Part shown: piece after piece, positions 2,287-6,734 of the stretch
Position numbering within the stretch: position 1 is the first letter of the stretch
How the letters are laid out: each line of letters begins with the position of its first letter
DNA from: Sorangium cellulosum
Lineage (GTDB): Bacteria > Myxococcota_A > Polyangia > Polyangiales > Polyangiaceae
Length of the DNA stretch: 35,734 nt
Direction: 5' to 3'
NCBI GenBank assembly: GCA_020720045.1
Contig: DYPH01000056.1
Coordinates: forward strand, 1-35,734
Notes under the pieces: generated by a model
Databases searched by the model: none
What the model was told of the DNA's origin: nothing
Seen by the model: the letters and a program-made list of their open reading frames with translations, nothing else
Translations under genes and position numbers: made by a program

Positions 2287-2460
2287 AGCTGCGTCGCCTT
2301 CGAAGCCCGGATACCACGAGGGGGCGACCGACGAAGGCGGGAATACCGGGCGATCGGGGCGGAGCGCGTCATGGCGCCTGGAAGAGGGCTCCAATCGGGC
2401 GTGGCCATCCCCACGGGCTCGCTGATGCCGCGAGAGTACCGCCTTGGCGGGCCCGATCGC

Positions 2461-2632
2461 GGTCACGAATCGCAACGCGAGCTGCCTCGGCTTGACCACA
2501 TGTGGTCAAGAATCGCAACGCAAGTTGCCTCGGCGAAACCACTTGCGGTCACGAATCGCAACGTGAGCTGCCTCGGCGGGACCACTTATGGTCACGAATC
2601 GCAACGCGAGCTGCCTCGGCGGGACCACCTGC
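2461..2632. repeat. Four tandem 43-bp repeats with dyad symmetry at unit junctions
   Basis: Four direct copies with an exact period of 43 bp occupy 2461-2503, 2504-2546, 2547-2589 and 2590-2632. All share the core GAATCGCAACG followed by GCTGCCTCGGC or a close variant, and a partial fifth start (GGTC) follows. At each junction the end of one unit (GACCAC or a variant) and the start of the next (GGTC) form an inverted repeat. The array fills much of the 400-bp spacer 2287-2686 between two divergent genes. There are no unique spacers, so it is not a CRISPR array. It could be a multi-site operator or a mobile-repeat relic. The rest of the spacer shows nothing recognisable beyond a candidate promoter. 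Confidence 0.9.
2491..2510. other. Perfect 20-bp palindrome at the first repeat junction
   Basis: CTTGACCACATGTGGTCAAG is a perfect 20-bp palindrome spanning repeat units 1 and 2. The same position at the other junctions keeps only GACC or GACCA against GGTC or TGGTC, so this is the most symmetric copy. This form suits binding by a dimeric regulator, but no candidate regulator gene is adjacent. Confidence 0.8.
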
Positions 2633-2650
2633 GGTCGTGGCGTCGGTGTC

Positions 2651-3567: not shown

Positions 3568-5595
3568 ATGTTAGACAAACGACGCATGGTGGACGGTCTT
3601 TTTGATCCTTTGAAGGCACGCATTCTCGCCGATACCATCGTCGGAGCGCTCTCGAAGGGCGGGTCGGACCAGCGCTTTTTGGTGGAGGGGGCCGGCGGTG
3701 ACGCTGTTGTAGACTTCATCGCTGAAGGACTCGAAGCAGCCGTTGTCGTGCGGGTGCCTCCGTCGAACACCGCCGACATTCCACTGCACGTGCTGCTCCA
3801 GGCCGCCAGCGGGGTGCCGCGCGCTCTCGAATCGGCCCTCGATCCCGCCCGGACCTTTGACGAACGCGTTCGTGCGGTTTTTAAAGATCTCGCAAACGCA
3901 AATCGCGCCCTCATCGTGCATCTGCCAGATGGCGCAGCCGATGGCGATGAATCATCGACTGGCTGGTTTTCGACGTTTCTAGACGGCGCCATCGAAACAG
4001 ACAGTCTCGCATTTACATTCGTGAACGAGGCCGCGCGCCTCCCGAGATGGCGTGTATCGTTCAGAACACGAGAGCAACTCCCTGCGCCCCACACGGATGC
4101 CGCCTCGCTCAAGGAGCCACGCCATTGGGGCGAACTCGCCGACGCAGCCGAACGTCTCGCCAAGCAGGTTCATTCTGCCACATCGGGACCGATCGAGCTT
4201 CGATTGAAGGTGGGGCTCGTCGCCCTCGGCATGGAACCCGCGCACGCGGCAAAGCTGGACTCCCTTCAGCAGCTCGTTGCGGAATATCAGAGAATCTTTA
4301 AGGCGCCTGATCACCACGATCTAGCCGTCGCGGTGAAACGACTCCTCTTGGCGCGAATGGCGCTTCCGAGGGACACGATGCTCGGGATTGCTGCACCTCC
4401 AGAGAGGCTTCGGGGGCTTTTTACGCACGCACTCACAAACGGCGAAGATGATGTTTCCGTTTCACCTTCGGTGCGCAGCCTCTTTCAAGGCGCCGTCCGG
4501 GAGGTGACAGCCGACGTGCAGAGCATGGCGTCCGTTCACTTGAAACTCGCCGACCATCACCGCTCTCTCGACGGTGCGTCGCAGCCCAGAGAGGCGGCTA
4601 AGACTTCGCCCACTACGCTTGTTCACTGGCTTGAGAAGGTTCACCACCTCGCCCATGCCGGGCCACTCGGGGCTTCTGAATGGAATCGGCAGGCGGTCGA
4701 AAATCGTGAATTCCTGATCGACCGCGCGCGCGCGCTGAGCATTGAGTTCAAGGACTACGACAGCGCCGCAGAGGTCTACTCACGGTGCCTCGCGTTGGAT
4801 AGCAAAGACGCTTACGCACTTCACTATCGCGCCTTTAACCTCGATAGACTCGGTCGAAATCCCAACGAGGTTGAACGCTGTTACCGAGCCGCCCTCACCG
4901 CGAATCCCGAAAACCTATTTTATCATAGCCGCCTCGTAACGTTCCTCATTGACCGCGCGCGCTACGCGGACGCGCTCACCGCCTTTCAGCTGGCGCTTGC
5001 CAGCGTTGTCGGCGCCTCACAAGACCTCGTATTTTGGCACCTGACGTTGCACGTGGTCCGGGCGTGGCTTGCCGTTGGAGAGGTCGGATATGCCCGCGAA
5101 GCGCTCAATACTGTTCACCGTTCGTGGGAACTTGAGGCGGAGCTTGAGCGCATTGAGCAACGAGTAGGAGATGCGGAAGAGGCGGAGCGCCTTGGCATCG
5201 CGGTCTACCCACCGGGGGTGCCCCTCAGCCAGCGCTGGCGTGCCCCACGCCTCGCGCAACGGGTTCACCAGCAGCGCGACCTCGTGGACTGGTTTCCCGG
5301 ACGCGTCGCGCGCGCCGACGTGGCCGATGAACTCGTTGCCACCTGGGTGGAGCGGGGGGGCTCGCCTAGCGACGCGCGCGTGCTGACCAGCACCTACACG
5401 GTCGAGGAGTGGAGGCAGTTGGGTGGTCAAGTACCATCCGACAAAGCCCTCTACATTGAGTTTGCAGACTACGGAGACGACGTCTGGGTCGTCTTTACTG
5501 ACCCGCGGCCAGTAACAGACGAAGGTGACTCCGATACTGCCGAGCGGCTCCGGTACCTTCTTGCGGAACCCCACGCCGACTCGGTGGTCGGATGA
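3568..5595 (+). CDS. TPR protein with degenerate NTPase-like N-terminal domain
   Basis: A 675-residue soluble protein. Residues 36-125 have the order expected of a P-loop NTPase: RFLVEGAGGDAVVDFI at the Walker A position (41-49), then the strand AAVVVRVP, then RALIVHLPDG at the Walker B position (113-122). The P-loop lacks the conserved GK[ST], so it should not hydrolyse NTP. This resembles the inactive STAND domains described from conflict systems (inference). Residues about 380-480 contain TPR-like helices (DYDSAAEVYSRCLALD and NPNEVERCYRAALTANP). The C-terminal 90 residues form an unrecognised domain (ALYIEFADYGDDVWVVFTDP). Its stop overlaps the start of the MBL gene as ATGA, so the two are coupled and probably form a two-component system. 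Confidence 0.8.
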   Translation: MLDKRRMVDGLFDPLKARILADTIVGALSKGGSDQRFLVEGAGGDAVVDFIAEGLEAAVVVRVPPSNTADIPLHVLLQAASGVPRALESALDPARTFDERVRAVFKDLANANRALIVHLPDGAADGDESSTGWFSTFLDGAIETDSLAFTFVNEAARLPRWRVSFRTREQLPAPHTDAASLKEPRHWGELADAAERLAKQVHSATSGPIELRLKVGLVALGMEPAHAAKLDSLQQLVAEYQRIFKAPDHHDLAVAVKRLLLARMALPRDTMLGIAAPPERLRGLFTHALTNGEDDVSVSPSVRSLFQGAVREVTADVQSMASVHLKLADHHRSLDGASQPREAAKTSPTTLVHWLEKVHHLAHAGPLGASEWNRQAVENREFLIDRARALSIEFKDYDSAAEVYSRCLALDSKDAYALHYRAFNLDRLGRNPNEVERCYRAALTANPENLFYHSRLVTFLIDRARYADALTAFQLALASVVGASQDLVFWHLTLHVVRAWLAVGEVGYAREALNTVHRSWELEAELERIEQRVGDAEEAERLGIAVYPPGVPLSQRWRAPRLAQRVHQQRDLVDWFPGRVARADVADELVATWVERGGSPSDARVLTSTYTVEEWRQLGGQVPSDKALYIEFADYGDDVWVVFTDPRPVTDEGDSDTAERLRYLLAEPHADSVVG

Positions 5596-6734
5596 TGCCT
5601 TTGCCGGACGACCTCGGCACCCTTCATGCCCTCGACCGCGACCATTTGCATGTGTTCGTTGTTGGTCCGGGCCGTGGCGAGGGAATCGCGATCGCGCTCC
5701 CGCGCAGCGGCTGGGTACTTCTCGACGGTGCAACCTCTGCCGACCGCAAATCGTGCCTCGTTGCAACGGTCGAAAAGTGGCGTGCCTCGACCGATGAGCC
5801 CGTTGAACTGTGCGTGCTGTCACACCCCCATGACGATCACATCGACGGCTTCGTGGAGATGCTCCCTGCCCTCAAACCACAGCGAATCGCCCTCGCTGGT
5901 TGCGACGGAGCCCCTAAGTACGTCGATATTCTGACAAACGCGTCGTCACCCTCGAACACAGACGACCTGCAAAAGGCGAGTAAGGTCCGCGCTGCTTTCG
6001 CCGCCATCCGACTCTGGGAAGACCAAACCACGCGCCGAGCCGAGGGAATCCATCGGTCGGCGACTGCGGTGTTCTCCAAGGACCGGGTTGCGATCGAAGT
6101 GCTTTCTCCGCCCGACGATGCGCTGAAGAGCTATCTCGATGCGTGCGTCACGACGCCAACGAAGGTGAAGAGCGAAGCGAATCGCTATTCGATCGTGCTC
6201 CGCGTCACATTCGGCACGACGACCGTCGTGCTTCCTGGCGATCTCCCAGCCACCGTGGGCGGCGTATCGGTAACGCCTGGATGGAACGAACTCGTCACCT
6301 ACGCGACGAACCTCCACGACCATACGATGATGAAAGTTGCGCACCATGGGTCGGCGGAGGCGTTTCACGCGTCCACAATGACAAGCGCGCCCCCAGACCG
6401 CGCATGGGTCGTGACTCCATTCAACAGCGCTAAACTCCCGCGCGTGGCAGACGCGGACGGGCTTCCGCAACTTGTCGCGGCGCGGCAAGAAGTCTTGATG
6501 ACTGCGATGCCAGCTTCGAAGTCTGCCCAGTCGGCGACGCAAATGCCGGGAATCGTCAAACTGGCAGATCTCAAAAGCAGCGCCGCGCGGCGACCGGGCG
6601 GCGGTGTGACGACAACGGTTACGGCGCCTGCCAAGGGGCCCCTCGACTGCGTTTGGTGCATCAAGCTCAACGACAAGGGCGATGTAGTTGCTCGCTATCG
6701 GGGCGTAGCGGCGTTAGCCGTCCGAGGACGGTGA
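5592..6734 (+). CDS. Metallo-beta-lactamase-fold protein, ComEC-like
   Basis: A 380-residue MBL-fold hydrolase. The metal motif HPHDDH (His78, His80, Asp82, His83) is followed by NRYSIVLRV (197-205), LPGD with Asp217 and KVAHHGS with His251/His252. This order is typical of ComEC/Rec2-type MBL domains, which include nucleases and phosphodiesterases. There is no transmembrane part, so it is a stand-alone cytosolic enzyme. The ATG overlaps the stop of the TPR gene by four bases. A likely reading is that the TPR protein senses a signal and the MBL protein acts on nucleic acid or a nucleotide, but the substrate is unknown. The stop lies two bases from the end of the convergent membrane-protein gene, and no terminator is visible between them. 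Confidence 0.85.
   Translation: MMPLPDDLGTLHALDRDHLHVFVVGPGRGEGIAIALPRSGWVLLDGATSADRKSCLVATVEKWRASTDEPVELCVLSHPHDDHIDGFVEMLPALKPQRIALAGCDGAPKYVDILTNASSPSNTDDLQKASKVRAAFAAIRLWEDQTTRRAEGIHRSATAVFSKDRVAIEVLSPPDDALKSYLDACVTTPTKVKSEANRYSIVLRVTFGTTTVVLPGDLPATVGGVSVTPGWNELVTYATNLHDHTMMKVAHHGSAEAFHASTMTSAPPDRAWVVTPFNSAKLPRVADADGLPQLVAARQEVLMTAMPASKSAQSATQMPGIVKLADLKSSAARRPGGGVTTTVTAPAKGPLDCVWCIKLNDKGDVVARYRGVAALAVRGR

Follow-up and report, generated by a model that had tools for sequence, protein, structure and literature searches.

The window analysed here, a stretch of 35,734 nucleotides from Sorangium cellulosum, contains two neighbouring genes for a 675-residue protein with an eroded NTPase site and a 380-residue MBL-fold enzyme, which raises the question of whether these proteins work together and, if so, to what end. 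Both open reading frames lie where the initial annotation had placed them, and the stop codon of the first overlaps the start codon of the second in an ATGA at 5592–5595 (Table 1). The first frame may start at either 3568 or 3586, which is without consequence here. Pfam gives weak TPR matches at residues 390–450 of the larger protein and weak MBL matches in the smaller one. The latter is also matched by the PADLOC models RTasMBL (3.5e-11) and LmuA, a Lamassu-associated model (2.8e-10), and by NCBIfam models that stay below threshold: ComEC, matched only through the C-terminal part of the models, 6A-MBL (NF058524; 22 bits, cut-off 220), and Avs1a (17.4 bits, cut-off 420).

Table 1. Features of the gene pair in the window (residue numbers refer to the respective protein).
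Feature	Position	Strand	Basis
STAND-TPR protein, degenerate NTPase (pseudo-STAND), 675 aa	3568–5595	+	ORF; model pLDDT 84.8; matches to 6mfv, MalT 8bob, Apaf-1
Nucleotide-binding-domain fold without working Walker motifs, residues 14–175	3607–4092	+	Model strands and helices; comparison with relatives whose motifs are intact
Walker A remnant GAGGDAVV, residues 41–48	3688–3711	+	Alignment
Walker B remnant ALIVHLP, residues 114–120	3907–3927	+	Alignment; other clade reads hhhhDE/DD/DG/DV
Helical and winged-helix-like region of STAND core, residues 176–315, boundaries approximate	4093–4512	+	Model; STAND matches spanning the region
TPR arm, residues ~317–545, predicted sensor	4516–5202	+	Model helices; weak Pfam TPR; TPR structures among fold matches
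C-terminal small β domain, residues ~563–650 (strands 574–644)	5254–5517	+	Model; comparison of homologues with (24/24) and without (0/4) the domain
ComEC-like MBL-fold enzyme, 380 aa, predicted DNase effector	5592–6734	+	ORF; model pLDDT 80.4; 9ic4 Z 24.3
HPHDDH metal-binding motif, residues 78–83	5823–5840	+	H78, H80, D82, H83 invariant in 19 relatives
Low-confidence insertion ~100–120, candidate gate near active site	5889–5951	+	pLDDT <50 at 107–109 and 118–120; poorly conserved
D217, bridging-metal ligand position	6240–6242	+	Invariant in 19 relatives
KVAHHGS motif, residues 248–254	6333–6353	+	K248, H251, H252, S254 invariant in 19 relatives

Based on the structure model (17 sequences, pTM 0.83), the 675-residue protein is a STAND protein, with an NTPase core like those of MalT and Apaf-1, a winged helix, a TPR arm and a C-terminal β domain. 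A Foldseek search of the PDB returned 6mfv, a STAND protein with a TPR sensor, as the best match (E 2e-7), with the Dark apoptosome next. VIA-align places MalT at the top (8bob; Z 15.8, 334 residues, rmsd 5.8) next to 6mfv (Z 15.7, 397 residues), where the rmsd of 18.8 indicates that the domain orientations differ, and then Apaf-1 (Z 13.4) and the plant proteins NRC1 and NRC2. Because arrangement alone can lift TPR and helical arrays to Z 11–13, weight was put on matches that span both the NTPase core and the winged helix. Model and fold matches together reproduce the order typical of the STAND superfamily, i.e., an NTPase core, a helical and winged-helix region, and a repeat arm. The P-loop NTPase strand order and the TPR-like helices that had been read from the sequence are thus borne out, and what had been described as a TPR protein with an NTPase can be specified as a STAND protein; its C-terminal part, previously a domain of unknown type, is indeed distinct and is modelled as a small β domain. 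Pfam, NCBIfam and the model give no match to a protease domain, the NTPase core being at the very start of the protein, and no MalT-type C-terminal DNA-binding domain is recognised by the same means.

The Walker A lysine had been noted as missing, and the alignment agrees, with GAGGDAVV in the window protein facing GxxGxGKS/T in relatives. The Walker B acid is missing as well, in columns where relatives read hhhhDE/DD, and with both motifs entirely gone the protein is, as judged from the alignment, a degenerate (pseudo-)STAND and not an active NTPase. This does not apply to the family as a whole, one half of which combines GxxGxGKS/T with hhhhDE/DD/DG/DV, whereas the other half reads GSGR... 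and ...RLPxSW in the aligned columns. One clade, to which the window protein belongs, lacks Walker B and mostly has GR in place of GK, while its sister clade retains both motifs; the loss of the P-loop proposed in the initial annotation therefore holds for the window's clade only. All Walker-B-less members fall on one side of a single branch (support 100/99; 200 of 200 bootstrap trees; 26 STAND rows), which in this tree gives the loss of Walker B a single origin. Since L041, L042 and L004 in this clade still carry the Walker A lysine, decay of the P-loop seems to have been gradual.

As for the 380-residue protein, the closest structure is the MBL nuclease domain of ComEC (9ic4; 256 residues, rmsd 2.9), followed by the phosphorylcholine esterase Pce (Z 20.1) and RNase J (Z 15.7). 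None of the seven ligand positions (78, 80, 82, 83, 217, 251 and 252) varies across the 19 intact relatives, and the reading of this protein as ComEC-like with an intact HPHDDH site stands, extended by D217, K248, the histidine pair 251–252 and S254. Based on the model, the protein is a ComEC-like MBL enzyme, with DNA as its probable substrate by analogy. Besides the insertion at ~100–120, a second low-confidence stretch is found at residues 335–347. The alignment of relatives reveals no conserved gate or cleavage residue in the insertion.

Homologues were sought in 377 genomes of the phylum and 317 of the class, and in a genome collection. Homologues are found in Myxococcota, Planctomycetota (L050, L054 and, as a second copy, L139), Actinomycetota (L053), Bdellovibrionota (L055) and UBP9 (L056). 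In 19 loci an intact MBL gene lies directly 3' of the STAND gene, mostly overlapping it, with full-length homologues of both, and five further loci hold an MBL remnant: L004 at a contig end, L135 in two frames, and L051, L054 and L055. The two overlapping frames in L135 likely reflect a frameshift and not a natural split. Among the 377 genomes, every MBL of the subfamily above E 1e-100 adjoins a STAND gene; the MBLs that follow in the ranking (1e-39 and weaker) stand beside different partners. The pairwise distances of the two proteins are correlated (r 0.936), with none of 10000 permutations reaching as high a value, and their trees mirror each other. In both genes dN/dS is 0.23–0.34 (three pairs). 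A chance overlap of unrelated genes is ruled out by the recurrence, the congruent trees and the purifying selection, and co-occurrence, which had been named as the check on the pairing, holds for almost all homologous loci, spread over several phyla.

In L051, L054 and L055 the MBL gene is deleted or truncated next to an intact STAND frame, as one would expect were the MBL the harmful member of the pair. In two of these loci, which come from distant genomes (L051:2378–2689 and L054:11485–11877), an internal deletion leaves mainly the C-terminal part of the MBL. Presence of the MBL also follows presence of the β domain. All 24 STAND homologues with the domain have an MBL or a remnant directly 3', as opposed to none of the four without it (L034, L044, L046 and L138), a difference that gives p ~5e-5 if the rows are taken as independent, although they are related and may represent only one or two losses. 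Three of the loci without the β domain (L044:8336–10766, L046:6364–8725 and L138:6332–8705) form a sister operon type, where the degenerate STAND-TPR gene is followed by a gene for a 150–168-residue protein with the conserved pattern PGxxxLPxxxxLPLPxWxxP...GLSVWD and no family match.

Clustering of 256 neighbouring genes from 26 loci gave no recurrent third partner, proteases included, and a universal third gene was rejected on this ground. No STAND homologue was found on viral contigs, which hold distant MBLs only, nor on plasmids, which hold four distant MBLs. In the window, the upstream frame of 262–305 residues (2588/2717–3505) has no family match and is absent at other copies of the pair, and was discarded as a component. 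Further upstream, at 610–2289 on the minus strand and divergent from the pair, a 375-residue P-loop NTPase starts at 2289; it is AAA_16/nSTAND1-like with an intact GPTGIGKS, and adjoins a gene for 183 residues without family match. These two genes may be another conflict pair. They were rejected as part of the present one, as across 78 other genomes only one relative turned up (39% identity; E 1e-20), and no other copy of the pair has one beside it. Upstream of the pair, 43-bp tandem repeats are present both in the window (2441–2636, 4.6 copies) and in L037 (7865–8286, 9.8 copies), with different unit sequences.

In three DISARM loci the pair lies between DrmMI and DrmA: as DrmD-DrmMI-[pair]-DrmA-DrmB-DrmC in L043, after DrmMI and an opposite-strand gene and before DrmA-DrmB-DrmC in L048, and inverted in L134, where it is on the opposite strand with DrmMI on one side and DrmA-B-C on the other. 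These copies occupy different branches of the tree, and L037, the nearest relative of L048 (69% identical), lies outside DISARM, which makes the three placements look like separate insertions. DrmMI is present in 88 of the 317 class genomes, and the probability that a random gene falls within ~8 kb of it can be roughly estimated as near 0.001; by the same rough measure, it is unlikely (~1e-4 or less) that two of the ~14 class loci would be found beside DrmMI by chance. Among the clustered neighbours, no defence families recur other than the five DISARM genes. Single copies adjoin PglZ (L050), a DruE-like helicase and a UvrD-like gene (L133), a type IV restriction enzyme (L132) and, in the fragmentary L039, OloA/OloB, and L054 is near cas2-, cas4-cas1- and csb-like genes as read from translations alone. 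Proximity to defence genes, anticipated earlier as a form of support, is thus found in three DISARM operons and five other contexts, against ~14 copies without a recognised one. As a control, 20 unrelated TPR loci with 53 genes yielded only isolated PADLOC matches at 1e-15. Because the 118 neighbours of 14 other loci gave mainly kinase-type matches, the defence association is carried by about eight loci and not by all. Apart from common Ser/Thr kinases, nothing recognised as a defence gene lies within 6 kb in some 14 of 20 loci, among them that of the window, and the neighbours there are mostly kinases and housekeeping genes; in the genome of the window, DrmMI is on another contig, and no Drm genes flank the pair.

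The placement in DISARM and beside other defence genes, together with the recurrence across phyla, points to a defence module that operates without a protease. We consider it probable that the pair is such an operon-coupled conflict module, with a STAND sensor predicted to control a ComEC-like DNase. The conflict-system reading of the initial annotation thereby gains support from recurrence, fold and defence contexts, but most copies, including that in the window, are not beside a recognised defence gene. In the proposed mechanism, the TPR arm would sense an infection signal, and the NTPase and winged-helix core would serve as switch or scaffold. Because the usual ATP binding and hydrolysis appear lost in the window's clade, its members would act as pseudo-STAND scaffolds. 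The β domain is the best candidate for contact with the MBL, since its presence and that of the MBL coincide exactly, and may dock or hold the enzyme directly. The nuclease would be kept inactive and, once the STAND protein has sensed infection, be released or opened to cut DNA, probably including that of the host, upon which the infected cell would arrest or die. As neither a protease nor a conserved loop residue was found, gating would be either direct or dependent on an outside protease, the protease-free mode being the one that we propose. A more specific model, which we put forward tentatively and at somewhat under even odds, is that of a mobile module in which a STAND protein, dead in one large clade, directly controls the DNase through the β domain without proteolysis, and which has repeatedly entered DISARM to serve as a suicide effector in reserve.

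The assignment of the MBL as a DNase effector has precedent in the pro-nucleases of Hachiman, AVAST and Canu, where a protease of the trypsin or caspase type cleaves gating loops that carry a conserved Ile or Gly (PMC12799240). The MBL of the pair could by analogy be a gated pro-nuclease of the HamM/CanC kind, cut by a protease that is encoded elsewhere or recruited from the host (e.g., a housekeeping protease). Its likeness to defence MBLs in PADLOC and NCBIfam, the disordered insertion together with the 335–347 stretch, and the subtilisin-like protease beside the MBL of L151, a relative from the same class, are in line with this. The 256 neighbouring genes hold no recurrent protease, however, and the insertion lacks a counterpart to the Ile/Gly that is conserved in HamM/CanC (PMC12799240), which makes cleavage by such a protease unlikely.

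Somewhat less probable still is a toxin–antitoxin-like or stress-response pair, where a degenerate STAND protein merely inhibits the MBL and senses no phage. Tight gene coupling, survival of the STAND frame when the MBL decays, and the missing NTPase motifs of the window's clade would fit, but a STAND-TPR sensor of 675 residues would make a large antitoxin, Walker A and B persist in the sister clade, and insertion into DISARM is repeated. That MalT is the top VIA match of one protein and Pce the second of the other, and that many loci lie amid housekeeping genes, could also suggest a MalT-like regulator paired with a hydrolase for a small molecule or a teichoic-acid-like substrate. We regard such a non-defence role as quite improbable: a MalT-type DNA-binding domain is not recognised, metabolic neighbours do not recur, ComEC is clearly a better match than Pce (Z 24.3 versus 20.1), and the placement in DISARM speaks against it.

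Returning to the defence module, a close relative in plan is AVAST type 1, which likewise combines a STAND NTPase and an MBL nuclease in one operon. In AVAST type 1, however, the STAND protein is fused to a trypsin-like protease and the MBL gene (Avs1a) lies 5', whereas in the pair there is no protease domain, the MBL gene is 3' of the STAND gene, and the window's clade has lost its NTPase motifs. HamM of Hachiman, the MBLs of Lamassu and DRT systems, and CanABC are described as nuclease–protease pairs in PMC12799240. Compared with HamM/CanC as described there, the pair shares an exchangeable ComEC-like nuclease with intact metal site and tightly coupled partner that moves between defence systems, but the partner is a STAND-TPR protein, the operon has no protease, and the hosts are DISARM and others instead of Hachiman, Lamassu or DRT. 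HamM/CanC carry two disordered gating insertions, each with a conserved cleavage residue; candidate counterparts in the MBL of the pair would be the low-confidence stretches at ~100–120 and 335–347, in which no conserved residue was seen. As an MBL domain, the enzyme resembles that of ComEC/Rec2 in fold and active site, but is a separate protein with a C-terminal extension and no membrane domain. For the eroded Walker motifs, iSTAND and iSTAND2 (PMC7159879, PMC8195603) and BrxB (PMC12839542) offer precedents of inactive STAND proteins as sensors or scaffolds in defence-type settings; these belong to MoxR-vWA ternary systems or BREX, and the available texts describe no MBL partner. Nor is the pair a core part of DISARM: within the class it is missing from the majority of DISARM loci, and the majority of pairs lie outside DISARM.

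The initial annotation recognised no named system with this pair, and no description of it was found in the available parts of the open-access sources consulted (PMC12799240, PMC12458937, PMC12839542, PMC7159879, PMC8195603, PMC10853773); searches for literature on the 6A-MBL system and on DISARM accessory genes returned nothing. A STAND sensor with an MBL nuclease and no protease, including one clade with a naturally dead NTPase, thus appears not to have been described before. The MBL nucleases of bacterial immunity known so far are pro-enzymes opened by a protease, and a recurrent protease-free STAND–MBL pair would, if true, constitute a second switch for the same DNase. The clades with and without working Walker motifs provide a natural experiment on the role of ATP in STAND immune receptors, and the placement in DISARM suggests layered defence, with restriction first and cell suicide as back-up.

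The searches also uncovered other operons with MBL genes. An apparent three-gene system (L091:4335–6755, L093:7143–9485, L095:1175–3535, L097:1077–3407 and L154:4381–7032), which ranges from Myxococcota to a conjugative Pantoea plasmid, encodes a protein of ~220–256 residues with the pattern FNPAxFxPxWF, a 133–269-residue protein whose C-terminus looks rich in β structure, and a ComEC-like MBL. In L092, L094 and L099 the operon consists of genes for a ~440–610-residue protein, a ParA-like ATPase of ~350 residues, a ~150-residue protein and an MBL. Homology between the β domain of the STAND protein and the small proteins encoded 5' of such defence-type MBLs (L091–L099, L154) was considered because of a suggestive pattern, and rejected as the profile comparison was not significant (P 0.08 and 0.005, probability <7%). 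Finally, in L151:1776–5124 an Avs1a-like MBL directly follows a gene with a C-terminal subtilisin-like protease domain, which would represent a further protease type for MBL pro-nucleases.
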